From: Agelaius tricolor
Lineage: Eukaryota; Chordata; Aves; Passeriformes; Icteridae
Direction: 5' to 3'
Assembly (NCBI GenBank): GCA_023055355.1
Contig: JALJCS010000004.1
Span: forward strand, 27,184,744 to 27,248,743
Length of the DNA stretch: 64,000 nt
Shown here: positions 31,026 to 64,000 of the stretch, in pieces
Layout: each line of letters begins with the position of its first letter
Numbering within the stretch: position 1 is the stretch's first letter
Notes under the pieces: model-generated
Seen by the model: the letters and a program-made list of their open reading frames with translations, nothing else
Told to the model about the DNA's origin: nothing
Databases searched by the model: none
Made by a program: the position numbers and the translations under genes

Positions 31026-31079
31026 ATTCTGGACAACCAGGAAGTCCAAGCCACAATGATCCTGCCAAGAATCCACCAG
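31026..31079 (+). CDS. NFIB: NFIB exon (probably exon 3): linker after the DNA-binding domain
   Basis: A 54-bp exon between acceptor TTCTTTATAG and donor GTAAAT. It enters in phase 1 (completing a split Asp codon, G|AT) and encodes SGQPGSPSHNDPAKNPP, leaving one base of the next codon. This hydrophilic, Ser/Pro/Asn-rich piece joins the N-terminal DNA-binding/dimerisation domain, encoded upstream of this window, to the regulatory C-terminal half. It has no catalytic or metal-binding residues. The SGQPGSPSHND signature matches NFIB and not NFIA/C/X. Exon limits follow from frame continuity with the exon at 42109. Confidence 0.95.
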
Positions 31080-42108: not shown

Positions 42109-42177
42109 TGTACCTTGAGGACAGTTTTGTGAAATCTGGAGTATTCAACGTGTCAGAACTTGTGAGGGTGTCAAGAA
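42109..42177 (+). CDS. NFIB: NFIB exon (probably exon 4): conserved YLEDSF...ELVRVSR segment
   Basis: A 69-bp exon, acceptor TTTTTCAG at 42108 and strong donor GTAAGT at 42178. It enters in phase 1 and leaves one base of the next codon. The split first codon reads G|TG (Val), followed by [19 protein letters not shown], then Val-Ser-Arg. This block is among the best conserved parts of the NFI family outside the DNA-binding domain (NFIA and NFIX have related DSFVTSGVF-type sequences). As I remember the mammalian protein, the residue at the exon boundary is Gly, so Val here would be a lineage difference created by TG instead of GT at the exon edge. Confidence 0.95.
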
Positions 42178-46401
<4,224 letters not shown>

Positions 46402-46595
46402 TAGCATGGAGTTATTTTACCTTGAATTATGCTCAAATATAGGCATTTCATTGCTGCAATAAAATGATGGCTTTTTAGAAGAATCTTTACTCTGTGTGGA
46501 GTATGTATTTGCTGGTTTTGTAAATGTATTTAAAACCAACAGGATATTGTATTAACAACCACCATAAACAACATTATTATTATTTACACAACAGC

Positions 46596-46688
46596 ATAAT
46601 AATAATAGTAATGATAATGATAATGATAACGATAACGATAATGATAATGATAATGATAATGATAATAGTAATAATAATAATAATAATA
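46596..46688. repeat. (AAT)n-(GATAAT)n microsatellite
   Basis: About 90 bp of ATAATA units, GATAAT hexamers (some with GATAAC) and final AAT units. It begins 200 bp downstream of the exon ending at 46396. Confidence 0.94.
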
Positions 46689-47400
46689 TTTTTCTATCTG
46701 GTGATAGCATTATTGTTTGAAAAGACATGTGACAAACGAGGTACTTGATATTGTCTGTGCTGTGATCATCCCAGTAGAATTTGGAGTCCAGTGCTTTCAG
46801 AAATCAAAAGATCTCCTTAATATGATTACTAAAACATAAGATTACACCATTTCTTTATTACCATGGCATGGACATTTAGTCTCTACCATGTGATTCACAT
46901 CAGATCCAATAGGCTCTTTCTGAAGAGCCCACATGTAGCTCTGTGGGACTCTGTCTGAGGGGATTGCTAAGTAGTGGCATGTTCTGGGTTATCCAAAGCA
47001 ACAAACATGCTTACTGTGGAGAAGAAGAGTGAAATTAATCAAGAGTCAAAAGAGTGAAATCAATTGTCATAACTCTCTCTCATGTTATCTTGATGTTTTA
47101 TAAACCTAGCTGCCTGTGCAGTCTTTTCCCTCCCCTTTGTTATGTGAGAATGTGTTTAAACTCATACGTTTGAACAGTATTGGTTAATGGATCCTGTGGC
47201 TGAGGTACTGCAGCTGTCTGGACGGACTGTGACATGTAAAGCATAGTATGTAAAAGGGAAATAGTTAAAAAGACATGCAGTTCCTTCCTTTGTGAATCTT
47301 TCAATAGTTTTCATATCGACTGCTGATCATTGCTCTCAGTTCTTCCGCAACTGAGTGACCCTTTGGTCTTACCTCATTTTTATATTCTTTTAAAGCTTCT

Positions 47401-47541
47401 TAAAAAAACAACAACAAAAAAAGAACCAAACAAAACAAAAAAAAACCCAAAAACCAAAAAACAAAAACAAACCCAAAAATACCACCAAAATAAAAAGACC
47501 CCACAACAACAACAACAAAAAACCAAACAAAAAAACCCCAA
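47401..47541. repeat. A/C-only low-complexity tract
   Basis: About 140 bp almost entirely of A and C (AAAC, AACAACAAC, AAAACCC patterns), with only two G residues by eye. The ORFs read across it on either strand are artefacts. It may be a decayed poly(A) tail or a simple-repeat expansion. Confidence 0.9.
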
Positions 47542-48902
47542 CTCTTTTTTTCCCCCTGCTAAGTTTCCTATTTCATCTCCATATGCAAGGAAACATCTGA
47601 CTGGTATGTCTTTTAGTTGCCAAACTCTCACATTTCTATTATAGTGGGTCTCATTTTAATCTTCTTTCGCCTACCTTTTTATCTGCGTTCTTACCATTAG
47701 GCTGTTCTAGGGTTAACTAGTTTTTTTCTTCATAATTTCTTTTGTATGTCATTTCTTAGGGAGCCTCTGATATTTATTTTTCACTGTTTGAAGCATTCAC
47801 TTTTGTATTTTTTAAAAAGAAGCTTGCCTGTGGTTTTGCATAATCTAATTTAAGAACAGTATAAATAGCAGATCTGCCATCCAGAATCTTCCTCCTTATG
47901 CAAAATATTTTTCTCTGTGAATGCTACTTGTTTTGCCATGAAACTTTATTAAAATTCTTCATGAAAGACAGGACCATACCTCAAATTATTTTTTTACTTT
48001 CTAGATAAATTATTTTTTATAGTTGTAGGGAAGAATGTATCCCCATTTGTGAAATGTAGTTTTGTCCTGCTGAGTGAGCTGTAGGGGCTTCTGGGAAGTG
48101 CTCTGCCAAATAGACTCCTGAGTGCAAGTCCTGCTGACAGAGCCTTTCTCAGGTGATCTTTATAGTTCTCAAGTATCTCAACTGCATTTTAGGTTTCGAA
48201 TCATTCTGCTTGCAAAGAATTATTTTCCATGAACACTGGATTTGTTTATGTTTGTATGAACTTCATGTTACAGTTACCAGTAGTGAACAATGTTATGATT
48301 TAAATTGCTTGAGTGTATTTTCAATGAACCTTTACTTAATTTCTGTGTTATTAGGTAGCTAGACTTCTGGAGTGAAATAGCTTTTAATATGTTCCATAAA
48401 ACAGGGAACTCCAATATGAGGAAGATAAATGATAGACTTAAATCAGGGTGTTTTGCTTCCTGGAGTTTGCATCCCTCCCCAAATGTCCTGTCCTCCAGCA
48501 CTAATGAGCTTAGTGAAATTTTACCAGATTCCTGTCAGAGAGATAGCCTTCAAGTCACTATTATGGATTTTCTTTTTTCCATCCTTAAGATGTTCTTCCA
48601 TTGCTGCAGAGGCACAGATACAGCACTGTCCAGTGCAAAAAACATTGTACTGGGGGAAATAGAAGTCTTTTGCCCCAAAAAAGTTATGTTTGCCTCTGAT
48701 CACTTTCTGAGATTATTTGCTGCTGCAGAAACACCATAAGTAGTAACTGATAAGCAATCCCTACCCTAGGTGCCCAGGCTCAGTGGGAAGTAGTGTGGGG
48801 CAGCTCCTGGCACATTTGTTCTGCTGCTAGTTTGTTAGATGCTTGATATCATCTTCATGGCACTGATTTAATCTCTCTGGTGACCATGGTATGACCCAAA
48901 GG

Positions 48903-49128
48903 AATGACAGATTAGGTTAAATATTAGGAGAAGGCTCTTCACACAAAGGGTGGTTGGAACAGGCTCCTCAGGGAAGTGGACATAGCTCCAATCTGACAGA
49001 GTTCAAGAAGCATTTGGACAGTCCTCACACACATATGGTTCTCGGGGCTGCCCTGTGCAGAGCCAGGAGTAGGACTATGGTGATCCTTTCTTGGTCCTTT
49101 CCAGCTCTGGATATTCTATGATGATTCA
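48903..49128 (+). mobile_element. CR1 LINE fragment, 3' end
   Basis: A diverged CR1 tail: ATTAGGAGAAGGCTCTTCAC, GGTGGTTGGAACAGGCTCC, CAGGGAAGTGG, CAAGAAGCATTTGGACAG, GGTCCTTTCCAGCTCTGGAT and the end ATTCTATGATGATTC. It belongs to a different 3' family from the copy at 23.2 kb (internal ATTTGGACAGTCCTCACACA version). It sits about 3 kb upstream of the candidate exon at 51874, in the same orientation as NFIB. Confidence 0.88.
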
Positions 49129-51873
49129 ATTACTTATATGTATCTGTGTAAAAGCTCCTTTCAGACACAGATGTTGTATCATGATATCGTATTTATGAAA
49201 ATCTATTTTCTGCTTCCATATGCCTGCAAACACAAAGATAATATAAGTAAATTTTGGGGGTGGTTTCTATGCCAGAGATCTCACTTGTGCTATTTCTCTT
49301 TTATCTATGTAAATCTGTGTGCTATATGAAGTTAAGATAAATGAAAAAGAAATAAGACTTTTGGGATCACATTTGTGTTTATCCAGTGTCAAGAAGGAAT
49401 GATCATGTGGCCACATCAGATTGCTTCTTCAGGCAATATCCACAGGTCATCAGCACCAAAAATGCAAATCGTTTCACAGTACCCACGAATAAATATGTCT
49501 CTGGATATCATGTTTATGGGCAAATAGCTTCTCTACCATGCAAATGCAGTTTTAACTTTTCTAAGAGAGACAACATCAGGAATAGTGTTGATACGAAAAT
49601 ATGCCATTGTTAATTTCAGTTTCATTGTCTCAGTTTTGGACTTGACAGAAAGAGATTTTTAACTTCTGAAATGAAATAGGTTTAGTTTCTTCTTTACAGT
49701 ATCTAAATGTAAAGTATTTTCATAGAAACTGAAATGACATAGTTTTGAAAGACTCTTTTATCATTAAGGCTTTTCACATCTTTATTTAAATATTTCTAAA
49801 GTAACAGAAATGTCATGAGTGGTAGTTTGGAACTGGATAGTTGCAATAAAACAATAACATCTGAAACACATTTGAATAAAATATTTAGGATTTTCCTAGG
49901 TGTCCCAGGGGCATTCTAACAGTTTTGATAGAGAGAATGAGACAGAAATTAATGGGCAACACAGAAATATACTGAAATTAAAAATAGGACAGAGGAAAAT
50001 TTTGCAGTAGGGTGAAATGGGTTAGATTAACCTTCCATTGCTTTGAAAAAAAATCATAGTTTAGTACGTAAGAAGAGTTTAGGAGAGGAGTGATTTTGTT
50101 GTATTCATGATAGGTTTTATAACTTCTCTGTGCAGGCATGCATCATGAGGTTCAGGGACATGAATATAGGAGTACTTGTGGTGTTGCCAGGATGTAGCAT
50201 TTGTGGATGTAAGAAAAAGAAATCTAGCCTAGTTACAGTAAATATTGCTCATACCAGACTCTGCTTTCAGTTGTAAAACTCCAGACTGTCCTTTTGCTGT
50301 TAACTGTCTTCCTGTCATAGTACTTCCAAAAATGTTTTGATAAGATTTCCAGATGTTGTGCTTTATAGTCTGTTTTGGGGGAGCTGTCTCTTTGAAGTTG
50401 TAACTCTGGGCAGAAATAAACAAGCGTACCCTAAAAATAGTAACTTTATAGATGGCATACACTTGGTAAGAAAAAAATCCACAAAGAGTTATGTTACCAA
50501 TCTGATATAAAAGTATTAGCCTTCTCTAATTAACCCAAATTAACATGAAAATTAAGTTTTAAAATACTTCTATTTATTGAAGTTTGATCATTGATCCTTA
50601 TAGAAAAAAAGAAAATCTTATTAAGCCATGATACTGTCCTGGAGATTTGCTCCACTGGCTTGCAAAATAGTTTTTGACTATTTTAAAAATATATGTAACC
50701 ACAAGAGTATGTGTAACTGTTTCAAAAACAGATTAAAAAAATACTGTGGAATGACAGTGTTGTTTTTTATTTTGGAGACATCCAGTCAATGTGGGAAGAT
50801 TCTGTAGTTTTTGCCATTATTTTTTGCTATGTTGAAATGCTAAAAATATGCTTCTATTTGTGTGATTTTTTTAAACAGGTTTGAGGTTTTCTGGTAGTGC
50901 AAATAGGCAGTTTTATAACTGCAGAGATTTCTCCCAAGACTTTTACCATTAGCCTTTCAAGTAACTAACTGTCCTCCAAAAATCCTACAGCCCAAAAAAG
51001 GGAAAAGTCATCTCTGAGAATGCTGCATTATTTAGAAGTTGAGCCCTAACATGACAATTGGGATTTCAATTGCTGTGTCTTCTGTCATATATTGTACAAG
51101 TTATTTTTTCTCTCTTGTGGCTTGTTTCTTCCAACTGGATGCCTGAATAACTTCAATAATGTCTGGATCATGTCTTAAATCTCCATCAATTAGAAATACC
51201 TCTACGTCTAATGACTAATTTACTGTAGATCTCTCTTAGTCTTCCTTTCTCCAGGTTGCTGTTGCTGAATTCTTCACTATGTTTTCATATCAAACAAAAT
51301 TTTAAGTTCCTGCACTAGTAAGATTTTGTGAGATAGATGTAAGTTTCTGCCTGAGTAAAGTTGATGAGTGTTTGAGCAATTTAGAAATTTTATGCAGTAA
51401 AAAAAAAAAAATTCCCTCACAAAATATGGAAGAGGAAGTTACTAAAAATTTAAAATGTCTCTAGTGACTAGTGCAGTGGCTAAAGGATCTTTAGGATTAA
51501 TAGGCTAATAACTGTTGGTGAACATCTTGATTTACTAACTGGCAAGTAAATTAGATGCTTTTTTTCTTAACTTGTAAGGAAACAGAAATATCAGAAAAGA
51601 GAAGGACAGTGTTCCCATCTATGGCCTCCTTTTTGAAAGCTGGCTTAAGAAAGTTCATTAACATAATTTCAGACAGTTTCTGTATTTGTCCTTGAGATCT
51701 GTTTTACTGTTATAGTGTTACAACACTGTGTACATTGGAAATAAATATAACAGTTGTCATCAATGCACACTGTTCATTACAGAAGTGGAGAGATTCATGT
51801 GGATTTCCATAGTAGACAGGTGTCTGGAAATACTGAATATCAATATACAATGAACTGAATTTTAATTTTACAG

Positions 51874-52322
51874 TTTCTTCATCATGTTCATTCTCTTACA
51901 CCTCACCCACCTCTACCAACAGTCAAGAGCCAAGATGCCATCATTCCATTAAAACTGAAACAGCTGGACCGCCTTCACCTGTTGCTTGGCCAGCCTCTGT
52001 TGGACCCTCCACTTCTCAGGTCCCGACACCCTTTGTTGGATACTCCTCTTCCGGACACTTGTCCCCTTTTTCTTTCTCCCCATCCACTGGAAACTCCTTC
52101 CCCATTGGGGTCCTTCCTGATCACTGTTTCTTTCTTGGATCTTCTTCTCATCAGCTCTCAAGGATGGATGTTCTTATTTCTGAAGTGAGGGAACTAAAAG
52201 AGGAAGTAGCTAATGTAGTCCAGGAGTTGAGAACAGTAACAGAGCACCTTGGCTTTTTGGTATCCTGTGTTGGACAGGGTAAAGGATTTTTTCCAGCTCC
52301 TGGTGCTCCTTCTGAGGGCTAA
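51874..52322 (+). CDS. NFIB: Candidate alternative NFIB exon: Ser/Pro-rich, SUMO motif, coiled coil
   Basis: A TTTTAATTTTACAG acceptor at 51873 is followed by an open frame that continues NFIB in the phase left by the exon ending at 46396 (G|TT, Val). It runs 149 residues to TAA at 52320-52322. Seen in the translation: residues 1-95 are rich in Ser, Pro and Thr, with IKTE at 26-29 (consensus psi-K-x-E SUMO motif, followed by TAGPP). Residues 97-129 form a helix with Leu/Val at every a and d position (L101, V105, L108, V112, V115, L119, V122, L126, L129), a coiled coil of more than four heptads. A possible donor (AGG|GTAAAG) at 52279 would give a 405-bp cassette exon ending in G|, correct for joining 60253. 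Otherwise it is a terminal exon. I do not recognise the sequence from known NFIB isoforms. A nested or domesticated-transposon gene is the alternative. Confidence 0.6.
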
Positions 52323-52574
52323 TACTTTAGAAACACACTCTCCATCTAACAGATCAATTCAGTTTGCAAAGGTTTACCTTGATCAATATCTGTTAAATGC
52401 CATTCTGTGTTTTTGACTTAGACTGAATTGTCAAAATCCTTCCATGTCAAAATATATTTGAAAGCAATTTCTGTCTTATTAGTAGCTTGTTGCTTCTACC
52501 TTTGTATATTTTTATTTCAAAATACTTTTTAAACAGTGTATACACATGCATACACATACATTTCGTATCTCTAT

Positions 52575-52625
52575 ATCTCTATATAATACAATAATTTATA
52601 ATCTCTATATAATATAATAATTTTA
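52575..52625. repeat. 26-bp imperfect tandem duplication, AT-rich
   Basis: ATCTCTATATAATA followed by an AATAATTT-like end occurs at 52575 and again at 52601. It lies in the possible 3' UTR of the candidate exon at 51874. Confidence 0.8.
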
Positions 52626-53593
52626 TACGGTTTTGACTAGTATGATAGGATTATTTTCAGCACTGTAATCAAATACTACCACTTGGTAAATTTTCATAAC
52701 TTCACATTTGTAAAATGAGAGATATGTTTCACCAAGACTAACTTTTCAAAGTGTATTTCCAGAGTAAACCCTTAGCCATGGCTTCTGTGAGCCTGTTGGC
52801 AGCTGTGCCTCTGAAAATGGCATCATGGTAACAAACAACAGCCTTACAAGGAAGAGTTACTTGAAGACCCTATTTGAGTCCTCCTTGTTTTTCCTCATTG
52901 TAGAAAAAAGATGTTGGCAGAATTCAGTGCATGAACTTTGTCTGCTTCTTAAAAATAATGTCAAATGTTGGGATAGTTTAAACAAATCCAAGATCAATAG
53001 GGAATTGGTTTGCTTTTGTTTTCTATAGTGACAATTTTGCAAGAAAAGCTGCTGGTACCTGGAATAAGTAAAAAGTTATTTTTATAAAGATGAAAAACAC
53101 TTAAAGCTTGAAAGGCACTATGTATAGAAAAATAGGTGAAGGATCTCCCAAATACTTATTTAATGAAAATACAGAGAGAGAAAAACATACTATGAACAGG
53201 ATGGCAAAAATGTTACCTTAGAATGAGTAAGTTGCTCGTACATCAAGAAAATTGACATCCTGCATTATTGAGAATGACAAGTTTATGCTGTCTTCAAAAC
53301 ACAAAGCAACAAAGATTATATCTGGTTTTCTGTATTTAAAATTGATTTAGACAAAATTTACAATTGTTCATAAATATCTCCAAGTATTCAGAATAACGGA
53401 TGAGGAAGTTTTTCTTTTGGGCAGAGCAGAGACCTGACTTTTCCTTCAACCCATGAACACTTAAGTTTCCAACTGAATGAAGAGTGTTTAGAAATATAAA
53501 CAGAAGGACTAATAAAATTTGAGATGCAATAGGAAGCATACAAAAAAGGTTTGATTTTTTTTTTGAGTTCCTGGAAATTACTGTTATTTGCTC

Positions 53594-53599
53594 AATAAA
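53594..53599 (+). promoter_or_regulatory. Candidate poly(A) signal AATAAA for a short NFIB isoform
   Basis: A canonical AATAAA lies 1.27 kb beyond the stop codon at 52322 and is followed within about 30-45 bases by a T-rich tract (TTTGTCTTTTTTTTTTG, about 53628-53645). This is the usual layout of a cleavage signal plus downstream U-rich element. It would serve a terminal-exon version of the 51874 exon. AATAAA is common by chance in AT-rich introns, so this is only positional support. Confidence 0.35.
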
Positions 53600-56500
53600 G
53601 TTGCTGTAAAAAATCTCATTACACATTCTTTGTCTTTTTTTTTTGACAAATATATTGTGGAAAGACCTATTACTTAATGTTTTCTATGTGTGATTAGTGA
53701 GGTGAATACACTTAGGGTCTCCATATTGATCAATGAAACATGTTAGTGAAAAAAGAATTTTTCATGTATTCGTGGCCATTATCCTGTGATGAATTTTGTA
53801 TCATGGCAACATCCTGCTATCTGGATGGTAGACATCTTTTGATTGAAATGAGTGATACAATGAATTTCTTAATGTAAGATTTGTCCCAGGAGCTATTATG
53901 TGTAATTTTCTTATTCCAATTTTGCTGAATAAGAGATTTAGTATTTTGAAATGGATCACTTCTTTTTAGAACTTGAAGGGTATGTGTTAGTCTGCATAAT
54001 TTAACATATGTGGTGCACAATGTCTTCATTTATGGAAAGAAGAGGTATTGTCATTTTTTGGGCACCCCTCTTCATTCACAGATTCTGTGTTTCTACGTTT
54101 ATACATAGATATATTTGAAAAGGTACTTTTTTACTACTTTCAAACAATCTGTATCAAACTTGATCAAAGTAGTATATTTCAGTTTGACTTAATGATTTTT
54201 AAAACCATTCTCCAGATGGATCAACAATTAATGTGGCACAACTCTTAAAATATTCCTAACCGTTACCATTAGAGACGATTAGATAAGAGTAATAAAAAGA
54301 TTTCATAATCTGAATGCTTCTAAATCAACAAATTCCATCACATTATTTTATCTCAATTAGCCATTTAATCTTATTGCATTAGAAACTGGAAATACTTTTG
54401 TGACTTTGGCAGTTATGATTACAGTATTGATTTTATTTTCTGGCCATGGTCCTTTCCTGGCCAAAGTCTCAGTCTTAATGAAATGTTACAGCTGTACATT
54501 TTTCCTTGAAGTCTGGATGACTTTCTGTAGGATAACTTAATAAATGACTAATACTACTCCAAAGTCTTTATAACTTTTTTGGTTTTTTAGGAACATTTTT
54601 CTCATTCTTCCACAATGCTCTTCTATCACAGCTGTGTACATGAATCACGCCTCTTTACAGTAATTCATAGAAGATGAAATGGCTCACTCTATTTCTGAAG
54701 TGTAAAGATAAACAAAAAAGTACTCAAGTACCTGAAATACACTGGAGCTGCTTAAGGGTTTTTTTTATGGCAGTGGCTTTTTTAGTGATCATATATATTT
54801 GCTCTAGCAACACAGTATTTTTGGTCTGATGCCTTTTATCTCTATTTCCAAAGTCAGCCCCATTACTTCCGTGCCTATTCCATGTTTAAGAGGTAGCCCC
54901 CCACTGAGCTCTGTGCTAGTCCCAAGTACTTGCCATACGACATCTGACACGCTGTGTTGATACAGAAGTGGCTGGATGAACTGAGTCTGCAGTTGTAGGA
55001 AGATGTGAGACAGGAGAGGCTGCAGAGGTGCAGCTGGTCCCTGTGGGTCACTGTGAAGGGGATGGAGATATTCTCACCTCCTTCCAACAGCAGCATCCCA
55101 GATCCCAGTGATCTCCATGATGGCACCTGCAGCTTGGGTGTCTCACAGCAGGACAGTGTTTCTGGTATGAGATGAGGATGAGGAAAGGTGAGGAAAGCTG
55201 GGCAGCTTTATCTAGAAGGTCAATGCATGGGAAAAAAGGTATGTTTCTTCTCTTGGAAACAGTGCAGTTATAGTAACATAGTCATGCTGATTATAAACCT
55301 CCCCTGGGTGTTCTACTGTTACTTCCTGGTGAGAAGTGGTGAGGTGTGTTTATAGATGAGAATGAAGAATTGCTGCCCACAGCCTTTACAGGACAGTGTA
55401 CCATAGTTTCAGCCTTATCTTGGTGGGAATAGCTGTAAGTTTACACAGACATACATCTCTTCATTATGGCAGTTAATTAACTACATGTAATATGATCTTG
55501 TCAAATAACAGTTATGGGATTAGGTCTGTATGTCCTGTCCCATAGGTGAACATTTTTTTTTAAATTATTTTGGGATGGGGAAAGTTTTGGTGTTCACATA
55601 TTCAATATTAATTTGATCTACCATCATAGCTTTGGTCATCCCCCATTTTATAAATAGCGTTCTGTTAAAATTGAAAAAAAAAAAAATTTGGGGAAATGTG
55701 TATGCAGGTTTCCCAATTACTTTAGTTTAAATGTCCATGCACTAGATTATACTTCCGAAAAGCTAGTGCATATAATTTTAACAGGAACTGTACTGAGTTT
55801 TACTTTCTGTCCATAAAAAGTAGGATAGTCAGTAATGCAATGGAAAATTTCAGTTGTCCAATTTTATACAGTCAGAAACACCAGCAAAGAGTGTCCTACA
55901 TTCATTCATACAGGTATTTGTCTGGGTTTTCCACCCTGCCTCCCTATATCCACCTTCCCCCTGTATGCTGGGAGGTGTAAGGGCAGGTAGGTAAAACCCT
56001 TCTGTCTCTTGCCCAAACCCCTTTCTGCTGAGATAAAGAAAATCTTCAAGGTAAACACAGCCCACAGAATGTTACTTTTGGCAATGGAGTACAGCATTCT
56101 GCAAGTTCACGTAGTTAAGGATGAGAAGAATGACATGTCTGCTCCATCTAAAGGGTTCTGACTGTTGTGTTTCAGTTGTCTGGAAGTTCTTGTATCACTT
56201 TCTTCTCTTATGTATATTAATACTTAGAGAGCAAAGCAAAATAAAATAGTGTAATTAATTATATGACTAATGAAAAAAGAAATAATTCAGTTGCTATTGC
56301 AATTAATTGACTCATTTTGCTGTAGTTTTTCTGAATTACAGTATTGTTTTAGTGTTTTTCTTGACAGCTTACAATACTGAAAATGGCTAGAAATTCTAGT
56401 CTAGTTTCTCTTCTTAGGTTTTAAATACAAATCTCAAAAGATGATACACTGAAATGGTTTATCTGTTGTGAAATGGCATAATAGCACAACAGAGCATTTG

Positions 56501-60194: not shown

Positions 60195-64000
<3,806 letters not shown>

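Follow-up and report, generated by a model that had tools for sequence, protein, structure and literature searches.

A probable alternative last exon of NFIB in birds, turtles and squamates that encodes a predicted coiled-coil tail

Maturation of the lung and development of the brain both require NFIB (Steele-Perkins et al. 2005), and according to PMC13379096 diversity of Nfib often concerns the C-terminus and includes dominant-negative isoforms. By analogy, the nearest precedent for the isoform considered here can be seen in human NFI-B3 (Liu, Bernard and Apt 1997), a truncated NFIB which PMC2747697 presents as a repressor acting through heterodimers with other NFI proteins. Both forms involve alternative RNA processing and the absence of the usual NFIB C-terminus. 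However, according to PMC2747697 NFI-B3 apparently cannot bind DNA by itself, whereas the isoform predicted here keeps the whole DNA-binding domain together with all residues as far as 308, to which a conserved tail of 149 residues is added. The short isoform NFIB4, which PMC11775196 connects with the differentiation of megakaryocytes, is similar in being an alternative NFIB form with a part of the protein missing and with interactions of its own, but it is the reverse of the isoform studied here in that NFIB4 is devoid of the DNA-binding domain (PMC11775196). The available part of PMC4133727 holds nothing on isoforms. Predicted database isoforms of a finch, a hawk, turtles, a skink and a wall lizard, known by their names alone, represent the same isoform as ours. 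No description of the alternative exon was found in the open-licence literature, so the exon, present in databases as predicted isoforms, is apparently undescribed.

The NFIB locus and the predicted alternative splice junction

The window, i.e. the whole stretch of 64,000 nt that was analysed, corresponds to positions 27184744-27248743 in the 1.16 Gb assembly of Agelaius tricolor. NFIB exons were placed in it by local tblastn with the human NFIB protein, and their boundaries were then taken from the sequence. All are on the forward strand: 31026-31079, 42109-42177, 44268-44388, 46278-46396, 60253-60384 and the proline-rich exon 62789-62973. The exon 46278-46396, 95% identical to residues 268-308 of human NFIB, ends with RTWHERDQ and one additional base, and its donor, GATCAAG/gtgagt, is in phase 1. 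Triplet repeats (TAG/TAA and TAATGA-like) flank this exon at 45475-45626 and 46597-46688.

The 13.9 kb intron between exons 46278-46396 and 60253-60384 contains, on the same strand, the segment 51874-52322, which is the coding part of the alternative exon and consists of a split Val codon, 148 residues and the stop TAA (52320-52322). It is preceded by a 3' splice acceptor (acag, 51870-51873) with the sequence ...ttttaattttacag/TTTC, where the first base of the exon is 51874. The first-pass annotation, made on this DNA before our analysis, regarded the segment as an unrecognised NFIB exon with a good acceptor, the phase left by the exon 46278-46396 and 149 open codons. The phase and the length were confirmed, as the donor is in phase 1, the joined frame is open to the TAA and 149 codons are obtained when the split codon is counted. 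The acceptor is usable, with a score of 5.68 on a rough scoring scheme, compared with 4.51-9.53 for the other six NFIB acceptors in the window. That the segment is a phase-matched NFIB exon also stands, while the word unrecognised does not, because predicted isoforms which carry it are already in databases.

These isoforms were found with a chimeric query composed of NFIB residues 1-308 and the alternative exon, in which only the region 292-457 was scored, so that full-length isoforms were eligible as candidates. Nine of the 410 candidates passed and all nine are annotated NFIB isoforms, namely X8 of the house finch Haemorhous mexicanus, an NFIB-like protein of the hawk Accipiter gentilis, X9, X6, X6 and X11 of the turtles Chrysemys picta bellii, Lepidochelys kempii, Pelodiscus sinensis and Chelonia mydas, respectively, X10 of the skink Tiliqua scincoides, X13 of the wall lizard Podarcis muralis and X3 of Gekko japonicus (P0017), in which the exon is limited to its first part and serves as an internal cassette. 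The other eight have the whole alternative tail. All nine are machine predictions, where prediction or listing itself requires an open frame, and each represents a cluster of 1-45 members, not every one of which need carry the exon. The junction WHER[D/E]Q-V-[S/T]S, equivalent to the splice from 46396 to 51874, is present in 9/9, and because exactly the same junction occurs in nine annotated isoforms we consider 51874-52322 to be an NFIB exon. The isoforms of the skink and the wall lizard (P0015 and P0016) possess an alternative N-terminus, ME[A/S][T/S]PYRAQ..., over approximately residues 1-45, versus the MMYSPICLTQ start.

A search with the 148 residues as query gave seven proteins of 25 candidates, 75-90% identical and situated on Logan contigs (one also in ENA). 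Since six of these seven frames begin 5' of the acceptor and continue across it, with the codons NFNF[T/A]V kept there, they look like unspliced genomic frames. Directly 5' of the acceptor, the intron at 51837-51873 has no stop in this frame (ISIYNELNFNFTV), and five of the seven Logan frames resemble it, which means that the similarity there need not all be coding; the acceptor region may also be conserved as DNA. With a turtle protein as query and 276 candidates, six proteins were obtained, the query itself included, from four turtles and two birds, and none from a mammal, crocodile, amphibian or fish. This silence says little, because the three known squamate copies were missed as well. Every match bearing a name in the chimera and turtle-protein searches is NFIB, none is named as another NFI gene and no mammalian copy is among them. 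When viral contigs were scanned for related DNA, 26 stretches matched, but no relative was among them. Presence of the exon in birds, turtles and squamates suggests that it dates to the sauropsid ancestor or earlier.

Downstream of the stop codon lies a probable 3' untranslated region (52323-53625, end approximate), the extent of which is deduced from the stop and a putative AATAAA poly(A) signal at 53594-53599, behind which lie a CA and a T-rich element (ttctttgtcttttttttttg). This hexamer, 1.27 kb 3' of the TAA, is in our judgement the best-looking of five listed between 52323 and 57000. Judged from these signals, the alternative exon is a terminal exon, and the donor at 46396 serves two choices, the alternative exon at 51874 or the exon at 60253. 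With a stop and a poly(A) signal the isoform would skip the exon 60253-60384, lack the proline-rich exon 62789-62973, i.e. lose the residues encoded from 60253 onward, and gain the tail instead. The first-pass annotation had foreseen the gained segment, which holds, but it missed the accompanying loss of the usual C-terminus. This predicted loss of the C-terminal activation region would be a consequence of alternative RNA processing. In the four alternative isoforms tested, the match to Pfam CTF_NFI ends at profile position 120-163 of 288, compared with position 206 for human NFIB and position 288 for the cassette form of the gecko. The isoform thus keeps about half of CTF_NFI as well as two further domains, NFI pre-N and MH1, and as both of these were matched, DNA binding is expected.

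Conservation of the predicted helix and the IKTE motif

Identity of the tails to that of the window (P0001) is 97% in the house finch, 84% in the hawk, 66-70% in the four turtles, 48% in the skink and 45% in the wall lizard. This divergence is not evenly distributed. In the skink and the wall lizard, the squamates whose tail is complete, 75% of residues 25-36 and 59-68% of residues 97-130 are kept, versus 26-50% in the other four segments, and the Ser/Pro-rich part, residues 37-96, is only 26-40% identical. The alignment used for the counts that follow (A3) has 15 rows and excludes P0004, with its altered C-terminal frame, and P0017, which has no helix; both are included in the counts over 17 sequences given for the IKxE motif.

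The longer of the two well kept parts is a helix at residues 96-133 (52161-52274, forward strand), a probable coiled coil. In the monomer model from AlphaFold2 (pTM 0.26) this helix is the sole structural element, with block pLDDT values of 78, 94, 97 and 88 over residues 91-130 and 58 over 131-140, and an overall mean of 62. Its a/d residues are L100, V104, L107, V111, V114, L118, V121, L125 and L128 in P0001 numbering, which is one less than that of the first-pass annotation, and the strict 3-4 register extends to eleven positions with M97 and V132. Neither 20,000 shuffles of the complete peptide nor 20,000 of the helix yielded a run of 11. The strict a/d heptad of nine Leu/Val proposed earlier is therefore real as a pattern: all nine positions are I, L, V or A in 15/15 rows, while the remaining helix positions are I, L, V, M, F or A in 22%. 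The coiled-coil prediction which had been suggested as a check gave an agreeing answer, one confident AlphaFold2 helix with an unbroken 3-4 hydrophobic repeat. We read this as evidence for a helix that has a coiled-coil face, a probable coiled coil and not a proven oligomer. E103 and K108 are invariant in the 15 rows and, with the register as assigned in our analysis, would pair as g and e' if the helix formed a parallel dimer. Several candidate relatives of the tail were rejected: the best Pfam family, Med21, has an E value of 0.15 and scores 12.8 bits where the cut-off is 37.3, and we attribute to coiled-coil composition or chance the sequence matches in PDB to a pair of designed coiled coils (E values 0.00057 and 0.098, with no single stretch passing alone) and to F-box protein 22 (two chains, E 0.47 and 0.48).

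The other well conserved element is IKTE at 51948-51959 (forward strand), a tetrapeptide which matches the psi-K-x-E consensus for SUMO. As a sequence this motif, noted already in the first-pass annotation, is well established, being IK[T/S]E in 17/17 sequences, and as a SUMO site it is a candidate. The further claim, that it is a site of the synergy-control type near Pro, was not upheld. Synergy-control motifs have prolines on both sides, no more than four residues before and no more than three after psi-K-x-E, and such spacing is present in none of the 17 sequences. The first Pro after the Glu of the motif is at +4 in eight sequences, at +5 in five (P0002, P0006 and three squamates) and at +7 in four, all turtles, and a Pro within eight residues before the motif is found in six of the 17. 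Conservation of the tetrapeptide is hence not accompanied by conservation of the prolines.

An explanation in which the peptide matters little is that the exon is mainly a switch at the RNA level, where the early end of the transcript lowers the amount of full-length NFIB. We regard this as unlikely, and it is the alternative that survives best. It would agree with the terminal layout, with a stop and a poly(A) signal, with the low identity of the Ser/Pro-rich part in the two squamates, and with the fact that two of the seven Logan frames (P0007 and P0004) are disturbed at one end. P0007, a frame with 4 members and 10 contigs, starts with MFILLHLT, which is the window's frame read one base off, and joins the NFIB frame only from TSTNGQ onward, the anomaly being confined to residues 1-13. 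Approximately four bases appear to be missing near its start, as deduced by counting codons in the protein; such a net loss would break the join to NFIB, so that the lineage of P0007 may have lost the isoform, unless the record is faulty. In P0004 (9 contigs) a change of frame in the last codons leads to a different tail end. Against a role at the RNA level only, the IK[T/S]E motif is kept in 17/17 sequences, the a/d core is hydrophobic in 15/15 and the helix is better kept than the linker, a pattern which argues for selection on the protein.

The cassette form and the origin of the segment

The usual product could also be an internal cassette spliced to 60253, which would add a Ser/Pro-rich segment with IKTE to full-length NFIB. 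The gecko model P0017 is of this kind, as it splices from ...GIPLIT inside the exon to the DMSSPT exon and omits the helix, and the in-phase donor GACAGG/gtaaag after 52278 in our window (rough score 5.79) makes a cassette form conceivable. This donor, 52278-52284, is directly 3' of the helix codons, and joined to 60253 it would give a cassette with both IKTE and the helix in full-length NFIB. Another donor-like sequence, TCTGAA/gtgagg at 52184-52190, lies within the helix codons and scores higher; it is in phase 0 and would shift the frame if joined to 60253. As the usual product, the cassette is nevertheless improbable. The terminal form is present in 8/9 annotated isoforms, although the search favoured isoforms with a full tail, at the place of the gecko's splice no donor in the window scores above 2, and the donor after 52278 sits in GQG codons found in only three of the 15 rows of A3 (P0001, P0002 and P0009).

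That the segment was derived from a mobile element, or captured as foreign coding sequence, seems very improbable to us. A coiled coil whose best Pfam candidate is Med21 (E 0.15), and the lack of any match named as another NFI gene, would be compatible with it. On the other side, the exon has a single match in its own 1.16 Gb genome (nine candidates scored), it overlaps no direct-repeat family among 20 of the 21 listed for 45-64 kb, and every named protein match is NFIB.

Several properties of the exon could have arisen by chance when taken one by one. The score of the acceptor by itself is weak evidence, because 375 of 4394 AGs outscore it (rank 376), and the length of the open frame alone is not beyond chance, since frames of at least 161 codons arise in 7/60 simulated windows and in 2/200 simulated copies of the host intron. 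In simulations of neutral decay (substitutions only) the frame stays open in 131 per 1000 at 70% identity and in 22 per 1000 at 48%, so that the control at turtle distance, 13% open, is not extreme for one pair. The exon has a GC content of 47%, and the flanking stretches of 500 bases have 32% and 31%. A chance open frame in the intron, brought into databases by gene prediction, is still the least probable explanation of all, for while length and acceptor score are unremarkable, predictions need not have RNA support and P0007 starts out of frame with NFIB, the same tail and junction recur in birds, turtles and squamates with the motif and the helix core selectively kept. What settles the reality of the exon, as far as sequence evidence can, is this conservation together with the annotated isoforms that have the same junction. 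From the sequence and the predicted isoforms, it is very probable that the exon is real and conserved.

A proposed tail-swapped NFIB isoform in sauropsids

The best explanation of the results as a whole, to which we assign a probability of roughly 0.7, is that NFIB possesses a true alternative terminal exon, which would give a DNA-binding isoform with a swapped tail. Splicing from 46396 to the acceptor at 51873 and polyadenylation near 53.6 kb would produce a protein of about 457 residues. Residues 1-308, which comprise the complete domain for DNA binding and dimerisation and the beginning of the modulation region, would be followed by Val and the 148-residue tail, which would replace the canonical proline-rich C-terminus and is predicted to consist of a disordered Ser/Pro-rich stretch with IKTE and of one 38-residue helix with a coiled-coil core. 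A Ser/Pro-rich C-terminal segment after the NFI DNA-binding domain is also a property of NFIC/CTF1, and the proline-rich activation domain of CTF1 is not known to have such a helix.

Such an isoform would probably still bind NFI sites as a dimer, but without the usual activation region. The coiled coil might strengthen or diversify oligomerisation, IKTE may recruit SUMO and co-repressors, and the isoform could tune or antagonise full-length NFI. How the exon affects NFIB activity is thus a more tentative matter than its existence. In its most specific form the proposal would be a sauropsid-specific exon giving an activation-deficient, DNA-binding NFIB with a second oligomerisation surface and SUMO-dependent repression, where the choice of the last exon would switch NFI sites between activation and repression and mammals are without this control; we hold this complete version to be rather doubtful.

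If the preferred reading of a tail-swapped isoform is correct, birds and reptiles would have, in this conserved isoform and its coiled-coil tail, an NFIB output possibly missed by isoform work in mouse and human, and the isoform would offer a simple test case for the tuning of an NFI factor by the choice of its last exon.
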